Shown here in pieces: positions 37,648 through 62,852 of a stretch of 64,000 bases of DNA. Position 1 is the first letter of the stretch; each line of letters begins with the position of its first letter. Position numbers and translations under genes: made by a program. The notes below the pieces were generated by a model. The model ran no database searches and was not told the DNA's origin. It was given only the letters and a program-made list of their open reading frames with translations. Source of the DNA: Saururus chinensis (lineage: Eukaryota; Streptophyta; Magnoliopsida; Piperales; Saururaceae); assembly GCA_035235625.1 (NCBI GenBank), contig CP141143.1, forward strand, positions 22,427,092 through 22,491,091, given 5' to 3'.

Positions 37648-37666
37648 ATTCTCCCCTTCCCTACTC
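37648..37666 (-). other. Copia polypurine tract
   Basis: The minus strand reads GAGTAGGGAAGGGGAGAAT directly before the 3' LTR start TGATGGG. Confidence 0.75.
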
Positions 37667-40979: not shown

Positions 40980-41190
40980 GGGTGAGAATATCTCATCAAT
41001 TCAACACATTTCTTTTGCCCAAAGCCCTTTACAACCATCCTTGCATTGTACCTTGGATGTGAACTATTCTCATTGCATTCAATCGGTACACCCACTTGTT
41101 TTTTAAAGCTATCTTGCCTTTAGGAATCTCCACTAACTTACAAGTATGGTTCTCATAAAAAGATTTCATCTCTTCTTTCATAACTTTCAT
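40980..41190 (-). pseudogene. Copia pol, start of reverse transcriptase, beyond the nested LTR
   Basis: The minus strand reads MKEEMKSFYENHTCKLVEIP, then KGKIALKNKWVYRLN, a frameshift, then RYNARMVVKGFGQKK and MRYS. This is the N-terminal reverse transcriptase motif series of Copia (K-x-KWV, ARLVVKG-x-x-Q). It continues directly into PVVNV at 38968 once the LTR is ignored. Confidence 0.88.
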
Positions 41191-41361
41191 CTATTAATAT
41201 TTATGTTTATGTGTTTGAGTTTCCACAAAACTTTTCGGTCCACCATATTTGGTAAATATAACATAGGTATATGAAAGGTACCTTGTGGATGACTTTCTCG
41301 CTCTATCAAATCTCCTTAGTGGCCTTTCTCTCTTCGATGTGAAGGCTGCCCCTCCTCAACA

Positions 41362-42660: not shown

Positions 42661-42975
42661 ATTTCTTTTTTCAACAATTTGTCAAACTCCATGTTTCATC
42701 CAACTCATACATAGTGAATAAGTATCTATGAGAAGTTGCATGAAAAGATGCATTGAAATCAACAACCCAACTAGTTGCACTTATTAACTCAAATAACTTT
42801 CATTACAAAAATAGATCATAACAAGGTCCTTACCTTTCTCCATGACATTGACCTCTTGAATATGTTTTTCTTTCTCATTTGGTGAGTCTTATTTTTCCTC
42901 ATTTAAGAACTTTCTACATTCTTTCTTGAAATGTATAAGATCATCACAATGAAAGTATTTCAACCCTTTTTTAGA

Positions 42976-43473
42976 CTATTTATCCTCTTTACCATTCTTT
43001 GGGACTCTACTATTTATCATTCCCCTTCTTTGTTCAGAAATCAAAGCTTGAGATAAAAACTTCAAGGACTTTCTCCTAACCTCTTCATTCAACAAGTTAC
43101 TTATATCTTGACTCATAGATAATACTCCATTTGGTGGCGAGTTGTTAAGAGATACTACAAGAGTCTCCCAACTTTCTAGTAAAGAACTAAAAAACAACAA
43201 GACTTGCAACCTATCATCCAAACTCATCTTCGTAGTTGCTAGTTGGTTCACAATACTTTGCATCTTATTTAAATGTTCTACCACCGAACCACTTTCCCTA
43301 AACTTCAAATTCACAAGTTTCATAATTAAGAAGACCTTGTTTCCTGTGGTTTTTCTTTCATACAATTCATAAAGTTTGTCCCAATGAATTTTTGCATCAA
43401 TTTCATTAGAAACATAGTAGAATACAACATCATTAAACCATTGTTTAGTGAAAGCTATAACTTTCTGGCTCAC
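42976..43473 (-). pseudogene. Copia gag (UBN2 type), partly intact
   Basis: A 165-codon frame beginning MSQKVIAFTKQWFNDV, with LYELYERKTTGNKVFLIMKL, GSVVEHLNKMQSIVNQLATT and SLLESWETLVVSLNN, the UBN2 gag core. A degenerate zinc knuckle (FHCDDLIHFKKEC, first Cys lost) follows just below 42976. The true gag start should lie upstream, before stops near 43480. Confidence 0.88.
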
Positions 43474-43654
43474 TTTCTACTATTCATCATCTGAGGTTTT
43501 ATCTAGCTTCAATCCCAAAATTGGTTCAAAGAGATCCTTAGAGTATAAAAGATTATTAATCTTAGCTTTCCATATCATCAAATAGCTCCATTTAAACTAG
43601 TCATCCTTGTGGCGCTATTCTCTATCTTATCTTACACAAAGGCAGTCTTTAACC

Positions 43655-43672
43655 TTAGCTCTGATACTACTT
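43655..43672 (-). other. Copia primer-binding site
   Basis: The minus strand reads TAGTATCAGAGCTAAGG about ten bases inside the 5' LTR. It is close to TGGTATCAGAGC, which pairs with initiator-Met tRNA. Confidence 0.75.
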
Positions 43673-43681
43673 TCTCTCTTT

Positions 43682-44338
43682 TGTACTAGCCAAGAAACAC
43701 AATAAATAATACAATTTTACACACACAAAGCAATCCAAGTATGTTCTATACACTTCCCAAGTATATGATATGCAAATTAACACACCCACAAAGCAAGTTC
43801 ACTAATGAGGCAACTCATCAAATATATGAAAGATACAAGATTTATGTGGTTTACCACCAAAGAAACGCAATATCCATGGGGTCTATGTAGACTAATGTTT
43901 CTATGAACAACGGGGATACACTATACTTTGTAGAGTGTATCCACAATCAAGTGTCAATACCCTCTACACATAAAATGGAGATATCTCACCCAAAGGTAGA
44001 AAAACAATAAAGAGATGAAGAAACAATTACCAACATAAACCACCTTTATTTGTCTTCTTTATGCCAAGAGGATCAACTCGAGCTTGAAAAAATTCATTCT
44101 TTCTTTATTCTTCTTCTTCCAAGAAACTCATTTTCTTGCTCTCCAAAGTTTCTCTCAAAGTCTTTGACCCTACACTCCTTCTTTCTCAAAACAAAACCCT
44201 TTCTTTTAAAAAGACTTTACTTAGTACAAAATAAATACCCAACTCTCTATATTCCACTTAACCCCAAAGTGGGTTAAGTAATGAGCCACCACCTAAGGAA
44301 ACCCATTAATGGGGTCCACATAAGGAGACAACCCATCA
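43682..44338 (-). repeat. Copia 5' LTR
   Basis: 657 bp, starting TGTACTAGCC and ending ACCCATCA. It is the partner of 37020-37647 and lies beside the primer-binding site. Confidence 0.9.
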
Positions 44339-47055
44339 GCAGAGAGGGTTGACTAGCGAAAGAGACAGGGAGCCATGTGCAGAGAAAGGGGCGGGTAGCA
44401 AAAGTGAGAGCAATTGATGGGCGGAGAGGGGCAGCTAAAGGAGAAAGAGGGAGCAACAAGTGGAGAGGGGAGCAGCCATAGTAGAGGGTTAGGCCAAAGG
44501 GGCTGTTGCCGACCGGAGGAGGGAGGGGGAAGTGTGTAGCTCGAGAGGGGTAGGAAAGGAGAGAAAGAATCAAAAATTAGATTTTTCAAATGAATTGACA
44601 AAAAATTATTTTTGAAAGTTATCTAGAACAAAAAAAGAACCGAATAACAATCTAGTTCAGTTTGGCTCTAGTTTTTAGGGGCAACCCTAAAGAGGAAAAA
44701 TAAGTTTCCCACCTCATAATCATTGTATTTTTTCCTATTTTCCCTTAGCCCATACCTTCCCTTCATCTTCCCAATCCACTTCCCCATCTTCACTGTTGTT
44801 ATCACCAGAATTGCCTCTACCTCACTCCATCTATTCTCATTCCCAGCTACCTAAGTCCTCCCCATTCCTAGCCCACCTCGCCTACCTCTCCTCCTCCTCC
44901 TCTTCCCCTCTTCCTCTTCCTTCTCCTCCTCTTCCTCCCTCTTTTGTCTTCTTCTTCTCCTCCCTTTCCCCTACTCCTCTGAGTCCACATCACCAATGCC
45001 ATCATCTATCTCTTTGTTCTATGCCTCCTACCCCCAACACCAATATGCCTGACCTTAGCCACCCTTCCCCTGGAGCTCAACCACGACAAGACTACATCCA
45101 AAGGATTACATTGTCTCTAAAAATGTTTTGGAGATGACCAGTCATCGTCATTAATAGGTTTGTCAAAAGGGTTGGGTTGGCCTTGACCCTAATATTAAAA
45201 GGGTTGACTATTGTTAATTGATAAAGTTGAACATACAAACCCTAACCCTATATGTATATTTCCTTTGACTTAGGAGACATTGACAACCCCAAATGCCAAA
45301 AATGTTCGTCTAACACCATAACAATCCAAGAAACTTAAGATTTGAAGAAATGTCTCACATGTCACCCTTAACCCTTATATTAAACGTGTTAGATCAATGG
45401 GTTTAACATGTTAAACAAGTTAGTCGAGTAATTACTATACCCGACCCTTATATTAATTGGATCTATTTTTTAGATTTTTTCCTTGCTATGTCTCTCATGA
45501 TCTTTTATAAAAATTCTTAACTAAATTTGAACTCAAGAGACATGAAATATATAGATTTGAATATCCACTCGCCAATCACTTCCAACTAGTTACATCCAAA
45601 CTAAATTATACAATTAAGGTAGCAAATTCCAAGACTTTTAGAGACAAACTATATTAACTGCCCTTTCCTTCATAACTGCCATTTGTTTTTCTGGTCAGTA
45701 GATATGCTGATGTTCCTTCTAACAAAACATGATTCATTCACCCTTTTTCTCAGCAAATTCCTTTCAACAAAAAATGATTTATCACAATGTTTATCACAAC
45801 ATTGGAGCTTTTGCCATTAATGATAATAAACATGTCAAAGGTCAATCACCAAACACTCAACATCCAAATTCAGATTACTAGTTTTATTATATTAGACGAC
45901 CTTTAAGGAAAGACTAGTCTAACATATCTACATGAATGAGAAAATTGAAAACAACATAAAATGCCCACATGACCATAAAAAGTAATGACAGTGACAATAA
46001 TTCAATATTACACAATGTACCAAAATAACTCAGATTTTGGACAATAAAAAAAGGTGGGAAAAAGAAAAAAACAATGACATTCTTGAGAAGGTTATCAGCA
46101 TTGCGATAGAAATAACATGGAGAGATCCGATTATTGAAATTGATTCTATGCATGCAGGCTGCAATGATGATCGTCCTTGAAGTTCTCATCTTTCCCAAAT
46201 TACCATAATTTTGAACCTTCGCCCTCTCACTCTCTCTAATCTCAATTCCAAGTAGTAGAGGTCAAACTCAAGCCCGCATAAAAAATAGAGTTCAAAGTGC
46301 TAATTAATTTAGAACTCATGAAACTCCCCAAGAAAATACAAGTATTCGAGTTGGCAATAGGCAAGATACTCCAATTCAAGTATTTAGATAAATGTATTCA
46401 ACTCTTGTCTTAATTGGTGTTCTAAGTTTAGTTAGAAGTCCGCTCTAAGTATATTAAGTGAGGAGAGAAGCTCTCCTGCATACAAAGACTTCTTTTTAGA
46501 GTTTACTCAATCTAAATACAACACAAAATAAAATTAGTAGTTGACTTTCCCGATGTGAGCATAACTTTATCTCCAGAGGTCTCACATTCTCCCTTCCCAA
46601 CTCAAAAAACTCAAAATCAATTTTACCTAAATAAATGCCAAGGTCATCTGCATTTTCTCTGTATAATTTTTAAATTACTCACTCAAAATTATAAACTTCA
46701 TCCATGTTCTATAGGAAGTCTTAATTGATTTAAGATTTGTTAAATTTCATCTATAAATACTATATTTAAGTAGGGTGTGAAGAATTTTTAGTAATTTCCG
46801 GTGATTCATCCCTATGATAGATATTTTTTTCCCTACTATATAAGATATAAGTTGCACATGATAAATTTAAATGGTATACCATAATAGTTAATCTATGGAC
46901 TTGGTTATGATTACTTTTTGTGAAATATGAATGGTGAAAAGAAATATACATATGGGTAAAAATATATAATTTTGCAAGGGCAAAAAAAGAGTGGTATTCC
47001 TATAATAACCTTCGTAGATGAATAACTTGAGAGATAATTTTAGAACTTGTAACAT
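44339..47055. other. intergenic, low-complexity and AT-rich DNA
   Basis: 44339-44600 is GA-rich. 44880-44960 is a CCT/TCC-rich microsatellite giving a Ser/Pro frame (44796-45137). The rest is AT-rich with frames under 95 codons and no similarity that I recognise. No gene is supported. Confidence 0.5.
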
Positions 47056-47064
47056 TATAATATA

Positions 47065-47590
47065 GGGGAAATTATTTAAATAATAATTAAAAAAATATTT
47101 ACCAATTTGGACCACTTAGGGAAATATTTCACAAAGTGGTGTTGCTTTTTGCCACGCAAGCGCCAGCCAAGTAGCTGGAGCATGTGTGGTTTTTTTTAAA
47201 AAAAAAGTTATATGATTTTGTCCTTTAGAAAGACAAAATCTTATAAAAAAATTAAATGAATTCATCGTTCGAAACGACAAAATCACCTTAAAGTTAGTTT
47301 TGTCGTTTTGAATGACGAATTCACCTTAAAGGTGGTTTCGTCATTTTAAACGATGAATTCACCACCCCTCCCGTGACCCTCCATGCAGAAGGCTGATCGG
47401 ATCTGTACTCCATATATCTCTTCATGGACATGCCCAACCCCTTCATGCAGAAGGCCGACTCTTTGTAGAGGCTGTGACCAAGGAGGCTCTCCATGTTGGC
47501 TGCGAAGTCGGCCAGTTCAACATTAGTTGGATCACCAGATCCCATGCCACACAACCCAGAACCTTGACACCTCGCAACCTAGAACAAAGA
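47065..47590 (-). repeat. left terminal inverted repeat of the MULE
   Basis: It is the inverse of about 55290-55708. Beyond the AT-rich outer 90 bases it carries a gene-derived segment that reads ELADFAANMESLLGHSLYK and ESAFCMKGLGMSMKRYM on the minus strand. The encoded source protein is not identified. It is longer than the right repeat because of a repeated GAATTC-rich insert near 47260-47360. Confidence 0.85.
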
Positions 47591-47797
47591 ATGCCACCCA
47601 AATTCCACTCCATGCATATTCAACGTAGAATCCTACGCCCATCAACTTACAACCATGGATCGCCGTCTAGGCGAGATCTCGTCAAGATCTCTCTCTCAGC
47701 ATCTCTATCGATTCGCGAGATCTGGTAGAGTTGAAATTTCAAATTTCGGCAAGATCTCACCAAGAGAGCCGCGATTTGATGAGATGGCAATCCATGG

Positions 47798-48082
47798 ATC
47801 AAGCATGCTTACAGGAAAAAGGCTTGGGAGCTCCACCCAGACAAGAACCAGGGCGACCCTCAAGCCACATCCAAATTCCAGAGGTTGCAGTCGGCTTTCG
47901 AGCTCCTCAAGAACGAATCCACCCGAGGAGAGCATGACAACCACCTTCGCGTAGAGGTCCAGCGCCAGGGGAAGCGCAGTGCCAAGCTATTGCTTCTCTC
48001 AGGCTCCGATGGCTCATCCCCATCCCCGTCCGATTTAAAGGGCTCGAAGCAAGCATTTTCAAATAGCTACGGTAGTGTCTAG
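47798..48082 (+). pseudogene. captured J-domain (DnaJ/DNAJC17-like) fragment
   Basis: The plus frame reads IKHAYRKKAWELHPDKN, then FQRLQSAFELLKNEST and a basic tail RVEVQRQGKRSAK. This is helix II, the HPD motif (47834-47842) and helix III of a J-domain. Spacing and tail resemble the DNAJC17-type co-chaperones. Helix I is missing, since a TGA lies just upstream. After the basic tail the sequence departs from any J protein. No promoter or RRM part is present. It lies inside the MULE and looks like a captured, truncated piece. Confidence 0.8.
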
Positions 48083-48960
48083 TTGTCCAATATCTCTCGT
48101 TTAATCAGCTTCAGGTGAGTTCCACTGTCGATCAGCTTGATGCTAATGTTCGATTGGATGTCGTGATTAATCCAAAGTGTGTTTCAATCCATGTTTTAGA
48201 TTTCATTTCCGTCTTTTTGGATTCTGATGATTAGGATCCCCCCTGAGAACATGTTTTAGACTCTTCATGATCACTCAGTGACTCTAGGAAGGGTTAGGCA
48301 TGTTTTTAGCAATTCTTTGTTGTTATGATTATGTATGAATTGAATATGGTAGTTAGGTTTGAGTGATTTGATGTTCTAATGAAATACCTCCGAATTGTAA
48401 TTTGATTTTTGAGGGTTTTGAGTTTGAATTCCTTCCGTTGAATCTGCTAGATCATAAATTCAAGAATTTTTTAACTGAATTTGGCTTGGATGGCTATGGT
48501 TGCTTTTGTTTAGAAATTGAAAAAGAAGAAGGATTTGGCTTTTTTGAGAAGAGTATCAACCGATGGGGTTCTTTTTCTGAGAAAAAGGATTTGGCTTTTT
48601 TGCCATAGCATATTCGTACTGACAATATGTAAGATTCTCAGTTCATATTGTATATGCTAAATATTTTCTTGACTTTAGAAACGTAAGCTATCTGGTAAAG
48701 TATGTTTATATTTTACTTTCAAGTAGCTGACGTTATTGTACCATTTTTTTAATTTTTTTAATTTTTTCATGAATCTGGTAGTGATGGTTGGATTATATTC
48801 TCTTACAAATGACAGTAATTAATTGTTCTCAATGGCAAGCATGACCTGAATGGATATCAAAATTTTCTTTATAATATAACTTATCATCTTTTTATTTTTT
48901 TATTAATTTTTTTTCTAACTTTCGTGTTGGTTACTTTATTAAACGAATATGTAAGCGTGA
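48083..48960. other. AT-rich interior of the MULE, no gene
   Basis: The DNA resembles an intron or leader (polypyrimidine runs, ending TTTTATGTAG before 48976). The one frame of 68 codons (48402-48608) has no similarity. Confidence 0.4.
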
Positions 48961-48983
48961 TTTATGTTTTATGTAGCAATTAT

Positions 48984-49192
48984 GGGTCGGGAGCATGGAA
49001 AGCTAGTGGGCTACCGAGACGAGACCGAAATCCGAGGCGGCCCGAGACGGCGAACCATGCTTACAACCGGCTATCCCCCTTCCCGCGACAAGGAAATAAT
49101 ACCAGCTCAGAAACGCTCCGCCCACGACATCGACAACGACGACCAGGGCTCACCCTCCGGCCCCAGGAGGGCCCGCACCTGCACAACAACGG
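48984..49192 (+). pseudogene. captured exon-like fragment of unknown origin
   Basis: GC-rich DNA follows an intron-like end. The frame MGREHGKLVGYRDETEIRGG continues with KRSAHDIDNDDQGSPSG and stops near a GTAAGC donor at about 49193. Its base composition differs sharply from the AT-rich sequence before it, which suggests a captured exon. I do not recognise the protein. Confidence 0.4.
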
Positions 49193-49282
49193 TAAGCAGC
49201 AGCTGTCCCGACCATGGAACGCCAAAAAAGCAGCGATTTTCTTCGTTACTTTTGAGCCGTATACGTCTTCCTTTCTTTACTT

Positions 49283-49696
49283 TCAAATTCTGCTCATCTG
49301 AATCATTCTGAAGGCAGCCCGGCTTCCAGCGGCGAGAAGGACGAGTACGTTCTCGCCGGAGAAGACAATGGACTTGACGGCACCATCGCCGGACAGGTTG
49401 AAAGCATCGACCTCTGAGAGGGAGAAGAGGTCCCAGACGCGGACATGTCCACCGGAAGCTGAGTAGAGGTGTGTGGGGGAGAGGGCGAAGGCAGAGACCG
49501 GCGACCGATGGGGACGTAGGGAGGAGACGAGGAGGTAGGAAACAGCGGCGTCGGTGGAGGCAGAGTCGGAGGTGGTGGAAGGGTCGGGGCAGTAGCGCTG
49601 GAGGGAGGGAACGGAAGGGAGGGACTGGAGGGAGAGGCCGCTGTGGAGGCTGTCGTAGGAGCCTGTGGCCGTGGTAGTGCCACCATGTCTTCTCAT
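49283..49696 (-). pseudogene. captured 5' part of a JINGUBANG-like WD40 repeat gene
   Basis: From an ATG at 49696 the minus frame reads MRRHGGTTTATGSYDS and SGLSLQSLPSVPSLQRY. A first WD40 unit follows: SPVSAFALSPTHLYSASGGH then VRVWDLFSLSEVDAF, and then DGAVKSIVFSGENVLVL. The SLQSLPSVPSL leader and single-exon start are typical of plant JGB-like WD40 proteins, which have seven repeats and about 400-450 residues. Here similarity ends after about 125 residues, where the next unit should begin with a G-H-Q-D motif. The remainder is absent, so it cannot form a propeller. Confidence 0.78.
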
Positions 49697-50041
49697 CTTC
49701 TCTGAACTACTTCACCGGTGGGAGTTTACTTTGTTTCTCTCTTGATCCTCGAATAGGAAGAGATAAGATTTTTTAGGAGAAATGAAAACTCTTTCTTATG
49801 TTTTTTTTCTTGTGTAGATTTCAGCTCGATTTCTTCTATTTTCCCATCTGCTTGATCTGGGTGTTTCTGCCACGCTTGGTTGTAGAAGAGGTGTAACGGG
49901 GAGAATGGAGAAGGTGGGGCATGGGGATGTCTGTATGCTTCAGTTTTCTGTGTAAATAGTCCTACATGCATTTGTCAGAAGGACTTAGATAGAGATTAGA
50001 GCATGTTGATGTTTTGGCTTCTCTGTTTTCATTGTCTGTTG

Positions 50042-50169
50042 CAGTTTTATGTTGCAGTTTTTTATGTATGTGAGGATCTGCGTTCTGTTTTTCGAGGTGC
50101 TAGGTCAGTTTTATGTTGCAGTTTTTTATGTATGTGAGGATCTGCGTTCTGTTTTTTCGAGGTGCTAGG
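50042..50169. repeat. 64-bp tandem duplication
   Basis: CAGTTTTATGTTGCAGTTTT through CGAGGTGCTAGGT occurs twice head to tail (50042-50105 and 50106-50169), differing by one T in a T-run. It leads into a short segment (50157-50200) that resembles the inner edge of the MULE terminal repeats. Confidence 0.9.
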
Positions 50170-50288
50170 TTGTATTCTTTCTTTTTTGGTTGCGGGGCGC
50201 GGGATTGTACGTTAAATATCCATGCATTTCTTTTTTTTTTGAACGTGGCTATTTACACCCTGTTATTTTCCTCTTCCTCTATCTCTCG

Positions 50289-51000
50289 TTACCTAGGTAC
50301 CCCGCACTTAAAGTTAAATAATCTTTCACCCACACCCCGGTTCTTAAAAATAATTAAAATTTTTTTAACTCGTGTGTACCCCTTTACCCCCGTCACAGCC
50401 TCCCTCTGCCCAGTCGTCGCCCTTACAAAATCTCCAGTAACTTCGTCAGCCCCATCACCCCAAATGGGCAGACAGCTCAAACCTTTCATTCTGAAGCAAG
50501 AGCTGGACGAGATCGGGGTATTTCTATAGCATGTATTTGACAAATCTGAGGTGCGACCGGGTCGAAACCTGCAACCGAAGCTCCTCGGCGGCCCGCCACA
50601 GCCGCCGCAAGCTGTCCCGCCTGTGCCAGCCGCTGCATCACCTCCACGAGGCAGTTCCATGACAACAAACCCGACCCTCCCTCCAGACCCTCTTCTTCTT
50701 CCTCCTCCCCCGCCCCACCACCAGCGGCCCACAATACCATCCTTCGCCCCCTTCTTCCCTCTCCTCCACCTCTTCGCTTTCCTCACGGAAGGAGAGAACC
50801 TAGCACGGGACAACCACTCTCTTTCCTCACGGAAGGAGAGCACCCGACACGGGACACTGTGGTGGCTGTGCGTCAATAGATGAGTGTAGTTCATATCCCC
50901 TTTTCCTTGTTATTTGTGAACCATGCGTCAATAGATAAGTGTAGTTCATTAAGTCTACAGCCTAAAAATAGGAAAAGAAAATTTTTAATTCCAGACATAT
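50289..51000. other. GC-rich MULE interior, probably captured, origin unknown
   Basis: Several overlapping frames of 84-201 codons on both strands, rich in Pro, Arg and Gly, arise from composition. One plus frame reads RHSRRKLSRLCQPLHHLHEA near 50590-50650, but I cannot assign it. Short direct repeats occur: CCTCACGGAAGGAGAG at 50783 and 50826, and GCGTCAATAGAT at 50870 and 50927. Confidence 0.35.
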
Positions 51001-51043
51001 GACTTATCTATTATTTTTATGCGTGATTGTTTCTGAATGACAG

Positions 51044-51903
51044 GTTCCATCCATGAGCGACATGATTGACATGTGGAGGAAGAAAAAAATGAACAGTTTT
51101 GGAATTTTATACAGCTGGTTTCTTGCTAAGGCATGTGAATTGTGTGCAAATTCTGGTAGTTCTGGATCTTCTTGTATTTTTGTTAGCTTATTTTTGTTAT
51201 GTTTTCTTTTTCTTTTCCCTCTCTTTACATGTGCAAGTTGCTGATAAGCTTGAAGTTCTTCCTGGTTCTGAGTTTCGTGTGTCATTTGAAGCAGGAAAGA
51301 GTTATGGGGCGAAGGTTACACTGGGTGACCATCCAATAAATGTAAGATGTTATGCTTCACAAAGACAGTATAAGATGTGTGAAAATAAGATATTGGCAGG
51401 AAAAGAAAACCAAATGCATTAAGTGGTGTTTATATATGCATTTTATGAGCAGCCTTGTTCATTAAACTTCATGAATGTTGTTTGTTGGCCTTTGATTGCG
51501 GAATGCACCAGTTTTCATCCGAGCGTGCTCTTTACCTGCTTAGTTTTTGTTCAATTATTGAAGACGAAGTACATAAAGCTTAGATTTAAGTGGTTTCTTA
51601 GATCAAAATCAAGTCCTTAATCAAATTGGAGTGATAATCAAGCAACCACAGATTCAAATTGAGATAGCTTGCAACACTTTCTAGATGGCTGTGCTCAACT
51701 TGGTGTAAAGCATAGATGTTAATTACATTGCATTTTATCTATATGATTTCTTATCTATTATGTTTACACTCAATCTACTGTGCTGATATATCACTCTTCG
51801 GAGAATATGGGGGAAAATGTCCTTGTGGCACAAAGCGAAACTCATCTTCTACCTACTTTTCCAATCAGTGTTCTTACCCAGTCCTGATGATCTGATTAAA
51901 ATG
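51044..51903 (+). pseudogene. captured TraB-family protein fragment (three exons)
   Basis: Exon-like blocks: 51044-51130 (VPSMSDMIDMWRKKKMN then SFGILYSWFLAK), 51238-51341 (VADKLEVLPGSEFRVSFEAG then KSYGAKVTLGDHPIN), and about 51786-51903 (ITLRRIWGKMSLWHKAKL then FQSVFLPSPDDLIKM). These are successive parts of plant TraB domain proteins, including the G-D-x-P and R-x-W-x-KM motifs. The first donor is CATGTG rather than GT, and no AG precedes the third block, so splicing is broken. The N-terminal GTAHVS part and the C-terminal membrane part are missing. Retained intron spacing shows capture from genomic DNA. It lies inside the MULE. Confidence 0.85.
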
Positions 51904-52116
51904 GTATATTGTGACACTTAGTATGTTTACTTGTATAAATCTTTTTTAAAGCTTGTGTACAATCTTTACTTCTGTTATGGCTTCTTTGCTAATATTAAAT
52001 GCAGAGAGTGACAAAGAGCTCTTGTTAGCCGAGATGCTATTTGTGCTTCAATAAAGGTAATGAGTTTTACAAATTCTCATGTATTTAAGAGTGTGGCTCC
52101 AGAACTGACTAAAAGA

Positions 52117-52530
52117 ATGGCTTCAAAGACTGTTCTTGCTTTGGGTCTTCTCCTGGTAGTTATTCTTGCCATTTCATCTGAAGTGGCTGCTAGAGACTTC
52201 TGCGGAAGATTTCAAAGGTGAAAGAACTTATATAGTGGTGTTTTTACTTATTAACTGCTACTTTTGGCTACTAATCACCTTTGGGCCAGGTGTCTAACAT
52301 CTATACTACCAACTGCCTACTCTATGAGCCCTGTCTTTTTAGTCGAATGACTTGGATTAACTATAATAGAAAAATTACTTATTGAGCAGCATTTTCTGAT
52401 GCAGGTGAAACATCAGTTGAGGATGGCTACCATGGAGGATATGGCGGTGCACCAGGTTATTTGTATGGTGCAAATAGTGGAATGAACATTATGACCAGGT
52501 TATTTGTATGGTGAAAACAGTGGAATGAAA
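52117..52530 (+). pseudogene. captured glycine-rich protein (secreted GRP) fragment with frameshift
   Basis: ATG at 52117 opens MASKTVLALGLLLVVILAIS then SEVAARDF, a signal peptide almost diagnostic of plant secreted glycine-rich proteins. One extra base in the next few codons (TTCTGCGGAA) shifts the frame to an early stop. An intron (52218-52404, GT-AG) precedes a second exon, in the restored phase, with VEDGYHGGYGGAPGYLYG. The Gly-Tyr repeat region then decays into DNA repeats of GGTTATTTGTATGGTGAAAA (52455-52660). The source gene is probably a short cell-wall GRP. Confidence 0.75.
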
Positions 52531-52660
52531 AGTTATGTTGAATAGGATGAAAAATGTGCACCAGGTTATTTGTATGGTGAAAACAGGGGACAAGTTATTT
52601 GTATAAGTTTAATTGTTGTGCTATTATAGGTTAGTTGTATGGTGAAAACAGTGGACATGA
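52455..52660. repeat. decayed tandem repeats of a GRP-derived unit
   Basis: GGTTATTTGTATGGTG with AAAACAGTGGA-type tails recurs four times at irregular spacing (about 52455, 52498, 52564, 52630). They look like duplicated pieces of the glycine-rich exon. Confidence 0.7.
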
Positions 52661-52817
52661 AATTTATGTTAAGCAAGATGAAGATTATGCCTGGCGTTTC
52701 ACAAAAGAATCCTTGCAACTTACTTCACAAAAGAACCCCCCATTAATCAAGTTTACTGACTGTGAATACAATGGAACCCTTACATTCCTACTTCGCAAAA
52801 GAACCCCCATCATTCAA

Positions 52818-53232
52818 GTTACTGTCTTCGAGTTGATGGGGGGGTACCCCCCGCCAAATTGTGTATGAAGTGGCGGGGGGCACCCCGTGCCCGTAACATT
52901 ATTTGAAAACAGACAAGGGGTGCCCCCCGCCACAAAGAAGACAGTAACTCGAATATGTTATTGTCTTCACGCTGACGGGGGTACCCCCCGCCAAATTGTG
53001 TATGAAGTGGCGGGGGGCACTTTGTGCTCGTAACATTCATTGAAAACAGACGGGGGGTGCCCCCCGCCACGAAGAAGACAATAACTCGAATATGTTATTG
53101 TCTTCATGTTGACGGGGGGTACCCCTCGCCAAATTGTGTATGAAGTGGCGGGGGGCACTCCGTGCCCGTAACATTCTTTAAAAACAGACGGGGGGGTGCC
53201 CCCCGCCAAGAAGAAGATAGTAACTCGAATAT
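52818..53232. repeat. three tandem GC-rich palindromic units, 129-131 bp each
   Basis: Units 52818-52948, 52957-53085 and 53094-53224 each begin GTTAYTGTCTTC and end with its inverse, GAAGAYARTAAC. Each is followed by the same 8 bases TCGAATAT. Inside each are GGGGGTACCCCCCGCC, GTGTATGAAGTGGCGGGGGG and GGGGGTGCCCCCCGCC. Each unit can fold into a long hairpin with G-runs of 5-7. The array lies where the MULE transposase frame stops (after TSTHKSFF). It resembles a tandem MITE cluster, but no family is recognised. Confidence 0.85.
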
Positions 53233-54350
53233 GTGAAAAACGATTTGTGTGTCGATGTCATGCCAATTATGGATAGAACTGGGAGTCCATATATGTTGGT
53301 TTTATAAGTGCAATCCATAACAAACACATGATGGAACAAATTTGCTAGCCGAACCGATAATGGATGGGCAAAAAATATAGATGTTATTGTGTCTGTGTCC
53401 TCATCCTTCTTATAGTAGCTAACATACCCTGATTCCTCAATCCGTTTCATCAACTCTTGTAGCACAGTTCTGCCCTCTCTTTGAGTTAAAGACAAGCGAC
53501 TACGGACATTGTAAATTGTTTTCATAGTTGTACAATTTGTATGGTCTACTTCCTTCAAAGATAGCAAAATTTGTCGAGGTTTCAACCCTACCTTTGACAA
53601 ATTCTTCACAATTTCTATCTCTCATTCTTTAAGACGACCAACATATGCATGCCCTTCTCTAAACTGCCCTGGGGGTGATTGTGACTACCACAAATTACTT
53701 TTAATTTCCACCCAACAACATTGTCAATATACATTCCCCTTGCTTGTAACTTGAATGGGCATCCGCATTTCTTTGTGGTTGTTTGTTTACTATGAATATC
53801 CGACTTGGGCTTTTGAATAATACTTCTTTTGTAGTAACCTGCCCTTTCACAAGCTAAACTAATACGTCGTTTTTGCTTTTGGGCATCCGATTTTAGGATA
53901 ATAAGCACTGTACCATGCCTCATACAACTTTCTTTGGCCCATTTTATTAGAGCATCTCGTGATGGGAACACCTGCAAGTTGATAAAAATATATTAATTTT
54001 GACATTTCTTCAATTAATATGACATATTGTCACGACATTCATGATTTTACCTTATCATCAGAAAATGCAAAAGATATATCCATATTTAAGATGTCACCCT
54101 GGCTTTGGCCTTCTCTTTCATATACATCCTGTTAACAAAGAGTTGCATCATAAGATTTTCATTTCACAACATTAGAAAATACTATAATTCTTTGTGTTGC
54201 CTTATATTTTTCTTTTTAGATAGAAAAATGGTCTATACCTCTTTCGAAGACTGGTTTTCTACCTCACCATATGGTTCATTTGCCTCTATTTGTTTCAATG
54301 AACATGGAACAATCTCGTCTATTTCCTCGTTTGAAGCAATACACCCACTA
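53233..54350 (-). pseudogene. MULE transposase (MURA type with FAR1-like N-terminus), truncated
   Basis: Minus-strand exons: about 54350-54239 (GCIASNEEIDEIVPCSLKQ), 54128-54051 (DVYEREGQSQGDILNMDI then SFAFSDDK), and from 53971 onward. The last gives VFPSRDALIKWAKES, ISLACERAGYYKRS, KKCGCPFKLQARG and WKLKVICGSHNHPQG, the FAR1/WRKY-like DNA-binding zinc fold. A TAG and frame change near 53615 follow. Then come SKVGLKPRQILLSLKE, IYNVRSRLSLTQREGRT, VLQELMKRIEESGYVSYY and HHVFVMDCTYKTNIYGLP, which includes the first catalytic Asp of the MULE transposase DDE core. Coding stops at the palindrome array, so the second Asp, the Glu and the C-terminal zinc knuckle are missing. Confidence 0.9.
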
Positions 54351-55289
54351 TTCTTGATAATAGATGATATCAAATACCTAAAGATGAAGATTCACCAGCA
54401 AGATGATCCATTCTTGATTGACTTAATCAATAGGCTATAGTCACCTATAATAACACAAAATAAGGGTAATGAAAATCTAGGACGATCATAAATAGACAAA
54501 TAGTACTTGGCAAGAACTAACAAAAGTTTTTAGCCCATCAATATACATTATTGTACTTAGAAGTGGGTTATCCCCATGTAGATATAATCACATTGTTGCG
54601 GGGTTTACCTTCTGCAAGTATACTAATTTAAGCTCCGCAAGTATACTATTTGAAGCTTTTACTTAGTTAATATGTGGCAGGGGGTGGTCCCCGTGAAGTG
54701 AAGAACAATGTTGCAGGGGCTAGCCCCTGACAAAAAAATAATAGAAGGTTGCATCTGTAAACGTTTTGGCGGAAAAAAAATATGACTAACTTGTTTCTGG
54801 AAGTGTAAAGACGGTCTCTGGAAGTGTAAAGACGCCATTGATGAACAAAGGAAGAAAACTTACAAAAAGGGTTCAATTGGTAGGTTGTCGGAGCTTTTCT
54901 ACCCACCACTGAAGTTTTTAAATCGTCGCCGGAGCTAGGGTGTATGCCGACGACAATAATACTCTCTGATCACCGGCGGCTACAGTGCTCGCCGACAGTT
55001 ATAGTGGTCGCCGATGGCTACAATGTTCGCCGGCGGCTACAGTGCTCGTCGGCGGCCTTGAGGAAGAGGAAAAAGTAAAAAATCTTTTTTATTAGGTTAA
55101 CTCCTAAAGTAAAAACGTGGGGGAAAAAGAGTAAGTCATAAAAAAGTAAATGGGGGATAAATGAGTAAGTTAGGGAAGGGGAAAGTGGGGTATAAAAGTA
55201 ATAAAATATTTAGACTTTTTACTTTCTATTTAAGAGATAGTGGAAAAAAATAGGGGTTTAAATAGCCAGCTTCTTTTCTTTTTTGGGTT
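54351..55289. other. MULE interior without a recognised gene
   Basis: A GC-rich hairpin-like piece at 54670-54735 (GGGGGTGGTCCCC, GGGGCTAGCCCC) resembles the palindrome array. 54930-55060 repeats GCCGGCGGCTACAGTGCTCG-like phrases three to four times (CTACAGTGCTCG and variants). No protein is supported. Confidence 0.4.
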
Positions 55290-55708
55290 CTCTAGGTTGT
55301 ATTCTTTGTTCTGGGTTGCAGGGCGTCGTGGTGTGGGATCTGGTGTGGTCCAGCTCACGCCAAACTGGCCGACTTCGTGGCTGACGTGGAGAGCTTCCTC
55401 TGTCACGGCCTTTACAAAGAGTCGGCCTTTTGCACAGAGGGGCTGAGCTTGTCCACGAAGAGAAATATGGAGACGATGAATTTATTTAAATTTTTTTATA
55501 AGATTTTGTTGGATGAATTTATTTAATTTTTTTATAAAATTTTGTCTCTGGGAAAACAAATTTAACTTTAACCTCTAAATGACGAAATTATATAAATTTT
55601 TTTTTTAAAAAATCACGGAAGCATTTGCTTTTTGCATAGAAAAACCCAACACCACTTATAGTTTGAATTGGTAAATATTTTTTTAATTATTATTTAAATA
55701 TTTTTTCC
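55290..55708 (+). repeat. right terminal inverted repeat of the MULE
   Basis: The inverse partner of 47065-47590. Shared phrases include GGGATCTGGTG, AACTGGCCGACTTCG, CTACAAAGAGTCGGCCTT-like DNA and TTGGTAAATATTTTTTTAAT. It ends ATATTTTTTCC before the duplication TATAATATA. Confidence 0.85.
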
Positions 55709-55717
55709 TATAATATA

Positions 55718-56145
55718 ATAGGTGGTGTAGAAAGAAATATTAAAAGAAACTAAAAGCCACATGAAGATAATATTAAAATTTCCAAATTTATCTTACCCTT
55801 CCTCCAAAATCTATCTTCAAGAAAAACTCTTAGGATACTCTGCTAAAGTTTCTAATCAATTTATACTTATTGATTAAATAATTCATCAAAGGAAGTGAGA
55901 AAGCTTACTCTATGTTCACAATGCAACTCTTATGTTCACCACGTACACTTTGACTGAGATTAATATTAATAAGGTTTGGTTCGGGTCAATTAAACAAGTC
56001 AGGCCAGTTTTGACTGCCTTAGTACTCACTAATGGCGTCTGACCATCACAAAATACGTCCAATCTCTAAAAGCATTCCGGCTGGCCAGCCAGCGTCAGAT
56101 GGTGGATTTGCAGTTTTTACAGATAGGATAATATGGGACAGGGGG
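55718..56145. other. AT-rich DNA between the MULE and the HIBCH-like gene
   Basis: No gene is seen. AATATGGGACAGGGGGAGTATA at 56128-56149 resembles one end of a Stowaway MITE. Its partner end was not found. Confidence 0.4.
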
Positions 56146-56527
56146 AGTATAATAATAAGGAAACCAAACTCTTGTGCGACTGCTAAAACTTTTTGAAACG
56201 TTGATGTACTCAAAATAGAACTGACTGAACATTGGAATACCCACATTATCAATGATACGAACCTTCAGCAGTTCGATTTGCAATGTGCTACATTATTGGC
56301 TAAACAAGGTAGCCCAACACCTACAAACAACTGATGAGGTTGAAATATGATATGTCAACTAGACCAACTCTTTACCAGGCAAATAAAGCTCGAGATAATG
56401 TCTGATACCATCATCAGAATATATTCCAGCTTATAAGAGAAAACCACGCGGGTGCAATTGCAGCCGCATATCTACAGCCTTTTATTTACACTTATTTGAA
56501 ATAGAGGCCTCGCTCGTTCATGAACTA

Positions 56528-59500
56528 TCAAACGTTCAATTCTTCAACGCTCGCTTGCAAAGGCTCAAACAGAGACTCCACTTCTCTCAGGTTGGCATCA
56601 TTCAACGTTGGTGGGTCCCACTTAGGGTTCTGCATAATCAAATAGAACTGTTTAGCTTGACTTACATCTTACATAAATGTCAGCTGTTTCCACAATTGAT
56701 AATAACATATACATAATATAAAAATATATTCATACAAAAAAAAATGGTTTTCTACTTGTAAAAGAATTTTCAATATGTAAGAATGTTGGAAAACGTTTTC
56801 CTTAGTAAGCAAGAAGGTTTTATCTGATGTAGTTGTCATGACTTAGATACAAATTTTAGCATTCAGCTTCACAAAACCAAAACCAGAAGAATCACTTAAA
56901 ACTTTCAAATTAGAGTTGGGCTACAGAGAAGAGCGAGCAGGAACATGTTAAGGTATCAGTTGGTGTTACCTTTCCAACTTTGTGCAAATTTTATTTATTT
57001 CTTTTTACATAGCAGTCTTCCACTCTATAGCTTAGTAGAAGATTCATTTGCATAGAAAATGGGAGTCAACTATTTTCTAGTTTATGCTTGCCTCATGTTG
57101 TTTGACTAACATTGCATAACATTCTATCAAAGAGAACACAAAAGATCTCAATTACTACTCGAAAGTTATCATTGTCTGCATAAAAGTTAACAAAGAGAAT
57201 AACCTGATCCTTGTCCACCAGGACAGCACGAACACCTTCAGCAAAATCATTTCGTACTGAGGATCTTAATGCTATCCGGTATTCAGTCTTCATCACACCA
57301 GTCAACTAATGCCAACAGTAAATGAAAAAAGTCAAACTTTCATCACTCAAATAATATTTAATGTGTATAAAAAAGACCATAAACTTCCAAAGTCAGCACT
57401 CAATTAATGGCACCAGCAGTGAAATATTACAAAACAAGAGCTGAAATTCTGAACCTGCCTCAGTTTCGACAACTGAAAACTCATAAGCATTATCAATATG
57501 AGGATCTGTAACTTACATTAGCCAGAGGATGAGCATTCGTCCCTCGTGCGGCTGCAACTTGGGAGAAATGCTTTTCAGTTAAGCAGAGGGAAAATGGAGC
57601 ACCCTTTCCCAGTCCTAGAAGGGCTTCATTGGCCCATTCTGCCACTGCAAAAAAACATACAACAGAGAACAGCATAGTGTATTGGTTGGTGTTCCCAAAA
57701 CATAAGGAAGCGTCATCACTTATGACAGTATATATTAGAAGGCATTGTTTTATATGCATAATTTTTTATTAGAAGGCAGAAAATCGTACATGAGAACAAT
57801 GTCACATTACTATATTCACAGTTTGCCATTAAATTAATGACTTAATATTAAATGCAAGAAGCATCAATGCCAGGTTCTGGATGCTCATTTGTACCTTTGC
57901 AACAGACTAACTGATCAAATAAAACTGGATGTCCTTATGATTTGTCAACATAAACAGGTAAGCTACCTGTTAAACAACAATATGAGTTTGGGATGGGACT
58001 GAGGAAAATCACTGGCAAGTCATGGATCATAGTTCTGTGGAGTTTGGGCTCCTTTAAATATGTGGCGAACACCCAACACAGCTTCCAACTTTCAGCCTCA
58101 ATTGTGGCGGTACACATTAGAATGAGCCCAAATTCAGTATCAGCAATTTCCAGGCTTTGTCTTTAAAGCTTCTTGCTTCAACACCCACCTAATCCTCACG
58201 GGTTCCACAACTTAAAAACTTAATGAAGACAAGCACCAAAAATGAGGGTAAAATGCCTTCACTTTTGGGTAACAAGCCCCGTTTACCTTCAAGCATATTT
58301 CCCTTGAGAATCTTTTGCCTTTAGTTCTCTTTACATCATGCATTATATTTTAATTGTAATCGACCAAAAAATATATTTTAGCTGTCAATGTTATACTATT
58401 TGAATGACAGTCTACAATATTACATGGTTTAAAGGTGCGTCGTGCATGATACATTTAGGCAAGAAAAGAATAATAAAGATGTCCAATACGGAAGGTACCT
58501 GCAGCATCTGTACTATGCTGATGTTTTTTCAACTCTTCTATTATCTCAAGAACTGATTTATGTGTACCAAAGGTGGAAATAACTTGAGGTAGAAGTGTCC
58601 TTAATTGAGAATCTGACTCAGGCTTTCTCATGTGTTCTGCCAACAGTGCCTGCAGATCCTTGTGTGCGTCCTCAGAGCTGGAAACATGAATATAAAAACG
58701 AAATGAATAATGCTGACACCTAGAAATCTCAGGATAGTTTGAGACACCACACCATTACAGACTTTGAATGCTTACTCTTCAAAATAAAATTTCTTATTAA
58801 ATCTAACCCTTTTCAAAACATAATCAGTCTCTAACTGGGAAAACAAGAAAGATATAATCCTATGAATAAGCATAAATTATAATAAAAACCATAAAATATT
58901 TGGTGTTGAAAATTTAACTGATAGATGTTATATAACAAAATATCTAATTGTGACATGAATGACTGAAGCCCAGAAAGATTCAGAAGATGATTGGATCAGA
59001 AGTCACTCTCTCTCCCGGTCTAAAACTCAGGGTTTCTGCTTTAGACACTTTTGGCCTCAACAAAAAAAATCTGACGCTACATTACTCGGTAGATTGCTGA
59101 TACCAGAATCACCACTGCATGATTATTAGTTTTAAGTCGGCAATATGGAATCTCTTCCATCAAACTACTCGTACTATTTAAACTAAAAGATAATCATTTT
59201 AAGAAGATCTCAGAACTTACAAGATGAGGCCCAGAAGAGCCTCCTTCAGTGAAGCCAGGTTTCCTGATGGCACATAATGTGTACCAAGACCTATATATAA
59301 GGCATCAGCTGGAGAAGATATCCTTTTTCCAGTAAGTCCGAGATAAGCTCCTACAACATTCTTAAGATGGCATTGTCAAGAAATGGATTTGAAAATTAAA
59401 GAAGAATTTAAATTTACAGAATTACCCAATCACACCTATTGGTTTATGCGTCGAATTTATTGTATTTGCACAATTAACTATTAAACTGAAAATTCAAATT

Positions 59501-62500
59501 AAGCAGCAAGTCTCACACCGTAACACCTTATAGCAAGGTATACGAGGAAAATATAACTGCATAAAACAGTTCCTACAGAAACAAAAGTCAAATACATTAT
59601 TACCTAACTGAAGGAGAGAGAGAACCCATAGTTTACTCGTTCAAGAGGTCTCTTTAGAAGTGACAACATAAGCACAGAATATCACGTGCATGTCACAGAA
59701 CCAAAAAATGCCTATAACCCAAGTTCTGGTTTTAACTAGTAACAATTTAACAATCTTGCATATTGCCAATGGTGGCCAGACATTATCTTGTTGTAACTAC
59801 ATTCCCTGCAATATTTATGCTAAGCATTCTCAGGAAATGTTCACTGAATAAAATATAAGTATTAAACAGCATACCAATAGCTCCTTCTCCCGGACTATGT
59901 GCTGCTATGAAAGCAAAGCCAACATCTGGGAATAAGCCAATACCATTTTCTGGCATTGCAAGCAGAGTTTTCTGCCATTCAGAAAATGTAAAAAATAAAA
60001 TTGTTTTTATGGTCATCAGCAAAGTTTAAGTCACAACACTGCAAAGGAGTAGCAAAGTTATCTGCCAAAGGCATAAGAAAATAAAAAAGTAAATCAAAGG
60101 ACCCAAATATATAAAACAAGCTTACCTCAGTGACAATCCTATACCGACCATGACCAGAGAGCCCAATCCCAAAACCCATGGTCACACCATCCATGAAACA
60201 TATATAAGGTTTACTATAGTCAGCAATTTTGCATATCAAAGAATATTCTGCCGCAAACACCTACAAGAATGCACCCATATTGAAGACTTCAAAATACAAA
60301 AACAAGCTTCCAGTAGCTTCAATGAAATGTTAACTTTAAAAAGCATGCCTTTGTCTTTCAAAAATTTTATTAAATATCACATTCAATGGTATTTAAAACT
60401 GAAATTTTAACTTGTTGGGAAATATTCAATATATTACATATCATGAAAATTGGCATACAATTTTTACAAGGTAAACTACACATCTTCATAAAGTTTTCTA
60501 TCCTTATATAGACCAACAATGGCAGCCATTTGTTTTGTTGTCAATGCAATGAGCTGCTTGCATCTGTGGGATGTATTTAAATGATTTAAATCGAAAAATT
60601 TAAGAATCCTTTCCAAACATCTGAATCCTCACCAGAGTTCCGGTGCCTCACTTACCTTGTCATTTCTGGGAAAGTCTAATAAGCATCTTTGAGGACTCAA
60701 GTGCAGACTCTACTACTTTAAAGGAGTGTCAAAAAGTTTAATTACACCAGGTTCAGATATGCAAATACTGAAGCACATCCGGCATATTTACTAAATAGAA
60801 CCTCTAGTGGTTTTAGCTTCTACTGCAGTGATACATCAGTTTCTTCATACCAAGGGCCTTCATTTCTTTTTTTGGAGAGATTGTAATGCAGTTTTTATTC
60901 CATTCCATAGTTAGAAAGTCAAAAGAAGGAGCAAGTCCAGAAGTTGAACCATAAGATCATCACTCCCAACAAATGCAAAGAATGAATAGTGGCTGACCGT
61001 CTGTAAGATCAGAAAAAGATAGCAATGGTGCTAGTTAGCACCCAGGTTTGAGACAGACAACCACTTATTTAAGTTGTACGAACTACTGTGCAAAGCTGTG
61101 AAGTAAGAAAAATTATAATGGTCCTAGAATCAAGAGATGTTGTACTTTAATATTTGAATTTCTATTAGAGAGCAGTCCTACTGAATTAATATGTACATGA
61201 AACTGTTTTTACACTTTATTGAATACATGCTAATTCTTTCAATTAAGGTAAACAATGATTTTAACAATGTGAATTGGTTAAGTCTGCACTTCATAGAGGC
61301 GGAGAGGCTTGATCTCCAACTTTAGGCAAAGGTTTATCAGTGGAAATCTCACCATTTTCCAGTCAAAGGTAGAAGATAAGCTGTCTTATCTTTGAGGTTA
61401 ATTTGACCATTGTTCTTCAATTTCACTATCAGAGGCACATTAAAGAAAGTACTAGATGTAGATGGAAATAAACTGCAGTCATCAACTATTACATACAACT
61501 AGATATCCTCTGTAATCCACACAAACACCTGTTTACGATATTAAAATGGTTTGTGTAATGACAATACGAAAATTCAAAATCAAGCATAAAAGCATAAAAA
61601 TCGAAACAGGCACTCAGAAGACAAAGTAAACCCGCTGAAAAAACCTTCTGCACAAGAGGGGTGCTTTTGTCCTTTCGAATTTCAGCAACAACACCCTTAA
61701 TATCCATCCCTGCAGTGTCCATCAGTATTCACCCTCAAACCATATTTAACAGCATTAAAAAATGAAGCCCTAGGTAAAGATCACTAAACCAGAAATATAT
61801 CAATTCAAAGGAAGTACTTGAAATCATTGTTCACGTAGATTAAGTTGCTTCTAGTAGTATTACCTGCTGAAAATGCACGAGGGGAACTGCTCTCAACCAA
61901 AACGCACTTCACTGTCGGGTCCACCTCCCACTCGTCAAGACAAGCCTTGTATCTTAAGTCCATCTCTGCATCATTTTACACATAAAATTTGAGCACAATC
62001 ACTCGCACCGAGAATCAGATACAGTGATCATATAGAAAGGCTACAAAGTATTTTACGCCCACCTCTGCATCATTTTACAAATAAGATTTGAGTTCAAACA
62101 TTCGCATGGAGAGTGGATAAAGTGATTGATCAAGTAGAAAGGCTAGAATTTCCACAATTACACTATAATCAAATGAATTAGTCTCATCCATGAGCTCTCA
62201 AAACCAGCGGATACTCATCGGCCAAATGCCAAAAAAACGCTAAACAACCCAGTTTGCCGAATCGCTTCCACATTCCACTGCAAAAGACTACCTAGGACAC
62301 GCTTCACAAAGCAGAGAGAAAATTGTACTCCATAAAAGCGAGACCAATTTTAATCAAGGAATAGTTAAACGTCTCTCGTAAAACAAACTAAGACGACGAT
62401 CCGCTAGCCGAACGGAAAGAGCAAGAAAAAAGAAGGGACGCCAATGAGTTACCGAGGTTCATGGCGTTGAGGGCCTTGGGGCGGTCGAGAGTGATGACGG

Positions 62501-62708: not shown

Positions 62709-62852
62709 CCTTCCCTCCTCCCCGCCAAAGCTTGCGCTTGCGTTCAGCAATTGAGATGGCAGGGGTGGTATCGTCTTTTTACACTTTGAGGTTAATACGG
62801 AGCTGTTTGTGTAGTGAATTTCGCTAAGATTCCGTTGATTCCGCTCTTCCGA

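Follow-up and report, generated by a model that had tools for sequence, protein, structure and literature searches.

The 8,644-bp unit at 47065-55708 is very probably a Pack-MULE, or transduplicated MULE: a Mutator-like DNA transposon that is dead and non-autonomous. It lies in a window of 64,000 nt from Saururus chinensis (contig CP141143.1), to which all coordinates given here are relative, and it combines matching long inverted ends, a directly abutting perfect 9-bp duplication, a broken transposase and pieces of four or more unrelated host genes. Measured against the excerpts available from the literature, the element is a large, well-bounded example of an already described kind, distinctive in the number of its fragments and, among Pack-MULEs, in its size. 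The boundaries are formed by the following features.

47056-47064: left target-site duplication, TATAATATA (read from the sequence)
47065-47598, plus strand: left terminal inverted repeat (arm alignment), which contains tandem repeats of 38 bp at 47261-47363
55295-55708, minus strand: right terminal inverted repeat (arm alignment, self-comparison)
55709-55717: right target-site duplication, TATAATATA (read from the sequence)

The original prediction had placed a Mutator-like element at 47056-55717, with inverse ends that continue identically inward; the boundaries and the inverse orientation hold, whereas the identity does not. The unit starts with GGGGAAATTATTTAAATAAT at 47065 (plus strand) and GGAAAAAATATTTAAATAAT at 55708 (minus strand), and the inverted similarity extends inward for approximately 0.4-0.5 kb, to about 47598 and 55295, in a diverged form with long gaps. 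Identity between the arms amounts to 319 of 383 aligned ungapped positions, or ~83% where they align, and the alignment scores 130.5, whereas 200 block shuffles of one arm reached 23 at most. The top ungapped blocks span 54 nt (93%, taking in some flank), 36 nt (94%) and 128 nt (80%). A 27-base probe from the left end, with up to three mismatches allowed, has two sites in the window, which are the two ends, against 0 expected. As had been claimed, the 9-bp flank is perfect: TATAATATA is identical at 9/9 positions and directly abuts both ends of the unit, within the 9-11 bp range of target-site duplications used for MULEs in the part of PMC3310237 available. This 9-mer is AT-only, as the earlier caution noted. 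Random 9-mer pairs in the window are identical at a rate of 9.7e-6 (290/30,007,425 sampled pairs), which becomes 8.7e-5 given an AT-only 9-mer, and TATAATATA is present at 11 sites over the two strands of the window together, so that the duplication counts only in combination with the ends. The AT-only composition, the local abundance of the 9-mer and the gapped, ~83% alike arms are points against the main reading, as are the below-cut-off domain matches and the unenriched GC of the TraB and GRP regions given further on.

Between the inverted repeats lie fragments of host genes, accompanied by two stretches set apart by composition.

47783-48082, plus strand: J-domain (DnaJ) gene fragment (Pfam DnaJ 9e-15, above cut-off)
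48961-49280: stretch of raised GC (0.55) that contains an open frame, possibly captured DNA (composition)
49283-49711, minus strand: WD40-repeat gene fragment (Pfam WD40 7.7e-5, below cut-off)
50395-50880: GC-rich (0.59) stretch, possible captured DNA (composition)
51041-51903, plus strand: TraB-family gene fragment (NCBIfam TIGR00261 4.6e-12, joined pieces)
51041-51130, 51237-51341 and 51790-51903, plus strand: TraB exon-like pieces (open frames, intron-like DNA between)
52117-52690, plus strand: glycine-rich-protein (GRP) gene fragment (Pfam GRP 1.5e-4, below cut-off)

All four gene fragments are located where they had been predicted, and they are parts, not whole genes. Pfam E-values refer to single open frames; in a second scan of whole frames with stops masked, covering six frames and E up to 1, the scores were lower (DnaJ 8.5e-13, WD40 0.02, GRP 0.022). 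The DnaJ match covers profile positions 17-63 of 63, the first 16 being absent, and in the PDB the fragment matches DnaJ chains (best 1.6e-8). One near-complete WD40 repeat is matched (positions 4-39 of 39), further WD40-type Pfam models being counted as the same single match, and WD40-type chains are found in the PDB with a best value of 2.5e-7. The GRP match is confined to positions 1-27 of 90, in a fragment that consists of a start and a signal-peptide-like exon followed by decayed repeats. For TraB, the value of 4.6e-12 was reached only after the three exon-like pieces were joined (one frame alone gave 0.15), and the match, to positions 70-138 of 380, scores 45.6 bits where the full-length cut-off is 178. 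In the first piece, the opening residue probably stems from intron. The TraB pieces are split by intron-like DNA and GT directly follows two of the three, which points to capture at the DNA level. Rows for TRIQK (0.45), Sar8_2 (0.11), LAGLIDADG_1 (0.038), WH_eIF2D (0.063), PLDc_2 (0.042) and EZH2_N (0.18) in frames of the element were set aside as chance-level matches.

That the cargo might consist of one or more expressed chimeric genes kept by the host is a highly improbable reading, judged from sequence: the J-domain, WD40 and TraB pieces do retain open frames of ~30 to 142 residues, but the fragments are truncated and point both ways, three of the six TraB exon edges have no standard splice letters (by-eye reading), and the GRP part has stops in all three of the frames displayed.

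The transposase remnant, also predicted, and the tandem arrays of the interior are located as follows.

50042-50170: 64-bp unit, twice in tandem (98%; self-comparison)
52818-53234: 137-bp GC-rich unit, three times in tandem, with inner palindromes, adjoining the transposase truncation point
53240-54391, minus strand: MURA-type transposase remnant (Pfam), comprising the DNA-binding region and the first half of the RNase-H-like region

In single frames, AFT is matched at 1e-5 (above cut-off), and ZSWIM RNaseH-like (4.9e-5), FAR1 (7.3e-4) and MULE (0.0054) are matched below cut-off; in masked whole frames AFT reaches 0.0036, then below cut-off, and ZSWIM 0.0065, with MULE and FAR1 not among the matches listed. 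The remnant represents the 5' half of the gene and ends within the catalytic region, where the RNase-H-like match halts at position 69 of 128; the 3' half is absent, and the matches listed at E up to 1 for the masked six-frame scan include no further transposase domain. Together with frame changes and stops, including a frame change and stop near 53620-53670, this truncation marks the element as non-autonomous, a condition in which a MURA-type transposase is dispensable for a MULE. The open frame 54233-54391 is attributed to the transposase by its position only, and its part 54236-54391 has no Pfam match. The transposase starts ~1.3 kb from the right end and reads inward; in autonomous MULEs the transposase likewise begins near one end and reads inward. 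A search for relatives of the transposase, made with the DNA-binding piece 53618-53992 alone, gave 2 pattern stretches from viral_contigs and 27 from genome_contigs, of which 0 were confirmed.

GC content is 0.54-0.61 in the DnaJ and WD40 fragments and both extra stretches, compared to 0.32 and 0.37 in the 2-kb flanks, in line with the tendency of Pack-MULEs to capture high-GC sequence that is described in the available part of PMC8277862; the TraB and GRP regions are without such enrichment (0.36-0.37). Both stretches of high GC may likewise stem from capture. Pfam has no match to the open frame 48961-49308, nor to 50395-50880 in two overlapping minus-strand frames or the masked six-frame scans. 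Unequal GC, mixed fragment orientation, and the unassigned stretches and tandem arrays of the interior would also suit an improbable history in which the host fragments were added singly after insertion, through rearrangements or other transposons in a dead MULE, and the element never moved with its cargo. A 26-nt inverted pair (73%, AT-rich) with one member in the left arm (47230-47255) and the other at 48903-48928 encloses the J-domain piece, and left-arm sequence scores 34 against the interior, a score reached by 1/100 shuffles. This pair is AT-rich, however, and missing from the self-comparison at E 1e-3, where no inverted pair brackets any single host fragment. Moreover, the masked six-frame scans (E up to 1) list no retroelement domain within the element, and the 9-bp duplication remains perfect. 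RNA families gave 0 matches at the gathering threshold in 46500-56500, and 0 tRNA genes were found in the whole window by a tool run in its bacterial setting.

A second inverted motif lies further inside the unit.

50246-50286, plus strand: motif TGGCTATTTACACCC..., possible inner element-end remnant, inverted relative to 55233-55268
55233-55268, minus strand: inverted partner of the 50246-50286 motif (inverted match)

It raises the possibility, which we consider unlikely, of a composite, where an inner MULE-like unit at ~50246-55268 with GGCTATTTA-type ends, containing the TraB, GRP and transposase parts, entered a smaller outer Pack-MULE that held the J-domain and WD40 pieces, or became fused to it, the two having since moved or decayed jointly. 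TGGCTATTTAMACCC is exact at 50246 (plus strand) and 55268 (minus strand) with no other window site at up to two mismatches, as a probe composed from those same two sites, and at least two such matches arose in 5/100 shuffles. The 41-bp inverted match 50246/55268 scores 38, where 100 shuffles reached 31 at most, and 35 bp of right-arm sequence recur in direct orientation nearby, at 50165-50199 (score 43, best of 100 shuffles 37). Over their first 60, 100 and 150 bp the inner arms beat 300/300 shuffles; over 200 and 250 bp, however, their score is reached by 1/300, and past the first 45 bp they are at shuffle level, with 264, 110, 35, 75 and 75 of 300 shuffles reaching the score at five lengths. 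Since several comparisons were made, weak scores are to be expected among these tests. The inner pair also has no abutting 9-bp duplication (TTTGAACGT versus AGCTTCTTT, by-eye reading). A clean nested insertion at 50246-55268 was considered and set aside, given the missing inner duplication and the lack of significant similarity past 45 bp. The inner inverted matches (50246/55268 and 47230-47255/48903-48928) give a hint of a more complex history.

For the single Pack-MULE, the most likely origin is an autonomous MULE that took up host DNA in successive pieces. Such an ancestor would have carried its transposase gene towards the right end, and would have lost the 3' half of this gene and acquired host DNA, including intron-like sequence, probably through gap repair or template switching while a transposition break was mended. 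It would later have transposed as one unit, with a relative supplying transposase, and would have landed in an AT-rich region downstream of an acyl-CoA-hydrolase-like gene before decaying. The full form of this proposal, with repeated capture, cargo in place of the transposase 3' half and at least four, perhaps six, unrelated host sources, is put forward tentatively, at somewhat less than even chances. If it is true, a single 8.6-kb element would be a record of successive captures, and a mobile unit larger than any original rice Pack-MULE. Comparison with its parent gene might date each fragment, and one large element in which several fragments accompany a broken transposase of its own would, given the host genome, make the order of captures and the MULE cargo limit testable.

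The view that a multi-gene cargo with transposase remains is unusual was overstated: the available excerpts already describe Pack-MULEs with fragments of several genes (PMC9168764, PMC3544724) and MULEs carrying host DNA and a transposase-like domain (PMC3418495). The literature found on multi-gene capture by MULEs makes general statements, with no count of captured genes per element. Pack-MULEs of rice and other plants share the long inverted repeats, the 9-bp duplication, host fragments that are sometimes multi-gene, and the non-autonomous state (PMC9168764, PMC6431247, PMC8277862, PMC3310237), whereas the present element measures 8.6 kb and keeps a transposase remnant. As excerpted, the sources call Pack-MULEs 'usually small (2-3 Kb)' (PMC9168764) and give mostly 1-2 kb, with none >7 kb, for the rice set of Jiang et al. 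2004 (PMC6431247); this ceiling in the 2004 set counts against the Pack-MULE reading. Transduplicated MULEs (Juretic et al. 2005, via PMC3418495) likewise hold host DNA and a transposase-like domain between inverted repeats, while here at least four unrelated host fragments are present and the transposase is truncated and broken. One such MULE of sugarcane contains a 14,491-bp LTR retrotransposon (excerpt of PMC3418495), so the present element is no size record. Host-derived sequence is also carried by KI-MULE and by Vitis MULEs in which ULP sequences follow the transposase (PMC2528002), where, in the part available, one protease domain recurs in families, in contrast to several different fragments in a single known copy. 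MULEs with multiple inverted repeats, which include large members (a maize element is ~10.7 kb by coordinates), resemble the present unit in its possible extra inner end without its own duplication; as excerpted, those elements have additional TIRs as inner ends, which mostly stand in tandem with the outer TIRs (PMC3310237), whereas the motif here is short and weak and does not resemble the outer ends. Helitrons rich in gene fragments also hold many unrelated gene pieces per element, up to nine, but replicate by rolling circle according to the excerpt (PMC6431247), in contrast to the inverted repeats and 9-bp duplication found here.

A position of the element within an intron of the acyl-CoA-hydrolase-like gene, prompted by a match at 33353-33697 to the last part of this enzyme family, was considered and dropped. 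That match lies in a duplicate of the gene that is partial and diverged (32280-33907), in which an empty site was also sought; no alignment reaches the insertion point. The first exon of the acyl-CoA-hydrolase-like gene has 0 matches in the PDB at 0.001. The gene itself is apparently intact and outside the element, with its last exons near 57.2 and 56.6 kb and joined exon pieces that cover the profile, which places the element downstream of it and not in an intron; the right end of the element lies 810 bp downstream of its stop.

The element, a Mutator-like (MULE) unit of 8,644 bp, spans 47065-55708, starts with GGGGAAATTATTTAAATAATAATTAAA and carries a near-inverse of this motif at its other end. 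A 27-base probe from the left end, with up to three mismatches allowed, has two sites in the 64 kb, both of them element ends, where shuffles lead one to expect 0. The original prediction that the ends continue identically inward holds for their inverted arrangement, but not for their identity. When 47066-47640 is aligned locally to the reverse-complemented 55250-55708, the match extends inward to about 47598 and 55295, with 319 identities in 383 aligned positions and a score of 130.5 versus a maximum of 23 among 200 block shuffles; since long gaps and local tandem repeats occur in the comparison of both arms, these are diverged and not identical repeats. The 9-mer TATAATATA directly adjoins both ends (47056-47064 and 55709-55717). 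Two random 9-mers of the window agree by chance at a frequency of 9.7e-6 (290 of 30,007,425 sampled pairs), and AT-only 9-mers at 8.7e-5. The earlier caution about an AT-only duplication was justified, because the window contains 11 occurrences of this 9-mer, both strands counted. Insertion is the best reading of the duplication's position and the ends combined. An extra TATAATATA lies within the element (48870-48878) near a weak inverted match (48903-48928); it is AT-rich and probably due to chance.

Ten open frames of the element, and afterwards all six frames with stops masked, were scanned against Pfam.

Features of the element and of the gene to its right (window positions)
47783-48082, plus strand: J domain (DnaJ), Pfam 9e-15, profile positions 17-63 of 63
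48961-49280: GC-rich stretch, GC 0.55
within 49283-49711, minus strand: WD40 repeat, Pfam 7.7e-5, positions 4-39 of 39, below cut-off
50395-50880: GC-rich stretch, GC 0.59
51041-51903, plus strand: TraB-family fragment, three exon-like pieces joined (open frames 51041-51130, 51237-51341 and 51790-51903)
about 52117, plus strand: start of a glycine-rich protein, Pfam GRP 1.5e-4, positions 1-27 of 90, below cut-off
52818-53234: tandem array, three copies of a 137-bp GC-rich palindromic unit with inner palindromes of the GGGGGGTGCCCCCCGCCAC type
53240-54391, minus strand: MURA-type transposase, Pfam AFT, FAR1, ZSWIM RNaseH-like and MULE
56528-62882, minus strand: multi-exon gene of the enoyl-CoA-hydratase/isomerase family (ECH_2)

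Fragments of at least four host genes, as had been proposed, are present, three recognized by Pfam (DnaJ, WD40 and GRP) and TraB by its joined pieces. The J domain lacks its first part, since the profile match starts at position 17. In the PDB, the WD40 region matched WD40-type chains, the best of them at 2.5e-7. Joined, the TraB pieces matched TIGR00261 at 4.6e-12 (positions 70-138 of 380, under the full-length cut-off), one frame alone reaching 0.15; by eye, three of their six exon edges are without standard splice letters. Masked whole frames scored lower (DnaJ 8.5e-13, WD40 0.02, GRP 0.022). The two GC-rich stretches, which gave no Pfam match in the open frames or the masked six-frame scans, may be captured DNA of other genes, and "at least four" is therefore the safe count. 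The cargo is truncated, and its being a retained chimeric gene is highly improbable. Because intron-like DNA separates the TraB pieces, capture of genomic DNA rather than of RNA copies is favored. The GC-rich J-domain and WD40 pieces fit the Pack-MULE capture bias stated in PMC8277862, and the TraB and GRP regions (GC 0.36-0.37) do not. That paper describes the capture mechanism as unsettled, with gap filling proposed, and fork stalling and template switching suggested on the basis of animal elements.

The expected MURA-type transposase remnant was also recovered. In the open frames its DNA-binding part scored above the cut-off for AFT (1e-5) and under it for FAR1 (7.3e-4), and its catalytic part matched, likewise below cut-off, only positions 7-69 of 128 of ZSWIM RNaseH-like and 1-30 of 99 of MULE. 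Among masked whole frames AFT reached 0.0036 and ZSWIM 0.0065, with MULE and FAR1 absent from the list. The match breaks off beside the 137-bp array, presumably shortly after the first catalytic Asp, and a frame change and a stop were read by eye near 53620-53670. Six masked frames held no further transposase domain at E up to 1. As the catalytic match is partial, the frame broken and no other transposase domain listed, the element is taken to be non-autonomous, without a working transposase of its own. The remnant lies roughly 1.3 kb inside the right end and reads inward, which suggests that it belonged to the element from the start and is not itself cargo. MULE knowledge and the literature suggest that a MURA-type transposase would have mobilized the element and made the 9-bp duplication. 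The unit is read, with considerable confidence, as a dead non-autonomous Pack-MULE, most likely once an autonomous MULE, with captured host DNA.

ALTERNATIVES
TraB, GRP and the transposase part lie between the two members of a short inverted pair (TGGCTATTTAMACCC, positions 50246 and 55268), as would be seen if an inner unit (about 50246-55268) had been joined with an outer element. Such a fusion is doubtful: the first 60, 100 and 150 bp of the pair score above 300 of 300 shuffles, but at 200 and 250 bp the score is reached by 1 of 300, the sequence past 45 bp taken alone is not significant, with up to two mismatches allowed 5 of 100 shuffles give the same motif count, and no 9-bp duplication is visible by eye at this inner pair. 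Piecemeal arrival of the host fragments after insertion is improbable; the J-domain piece does lie between 47230-47255 and 48903-48928, which form an AT-rich inverted pair of 26 nt with a weak match (73%), but the score of the left-arm search that matches it is reached by 1 of 100 shuffles, and the pair is missing from the self-comparison at E 1e-3.

As a Pack-MULE, the element is a new, large example of an already described kind. Extracts of the literature state that one element can acquire fragments from multiple loci (PMC3544724), describe transduplicated MULEs as host DNA together with a transposase-like domain (PMC3418495), and place a ULP sequence downstream of the transposase in Vitis MULEs (PMC2528002). 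According to PMC6431247, the 2004 Pack-MULE set has none above 7 kb, most being 1-2 kb, whereas other papers give a MULE of another kind of about 10.7 kb by coordinates (PMC3310237) and a still larger transduplicated MULE with a 14,491-bp retrotransposon inside (PMC3418495).

To the right, the ECH_2-family gene is apparently intact, as judged from its joined exon pieces (positions 2-335 of 335, 4.6e-99). We take it to be 3-hydroxyisobutyryl-CoA-hydrolase-like, a tentative name that draws in part on the first exon, which has one weak match in NCBIfam (0.012). Its stop, in the last exon frame, lies at 56528, 810 bp from the right duplication of the element. A diverged partial copy of its 3' part, intron sequence included, lies at about 32280-33907 (short blocks, 70-96%); in the alignment it does not extend to the insertion point, and thus yields no empty site. 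The end of a Nudix-type gene, seen by eye on the plus strand at about 30.5-32.2 kb, adjoins this copy, and a piece of that gene (31530-31720) is found again at 33974-34137 (72%), which suggests that the gene pair was duplicated in tandem long ago. In the right flank a Stowaway-like end (GGGACAGGGGGAGTA, by eye) lies at 56130-56170, and the likeness to the duplicate starts beside it, at 56147.

Elsewhere in the window, an old Copia-type LTR retrotransposon (37035-44338) has 0.6-kb direct repeats (37035-37647/43725-44338, 79%), between which gag, GAG-pre-integrase, SH3-like and reverse-transcriptase matches lie on the minus strand. Inverted copies of about 1.9 kb (34693-36574/38985-40972, three blocks, 72-75%), one of them inside the Copia element, probably reflect a further piece, in inverse orientation, of some related element. 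Another LTR-retrotransposon frame (1241-2386, minus strand) encodes an aspartyl protease of retroviral type together with the beginning of a reverse transcriptase. A 98% direct repeat of 141 bp (5284-5424/14490-14630, spacing 9.2 kb) possibly marks the ends of an inserted element, and a 55-bp tandem array of about five copies (92%) occupies 11090-11381.
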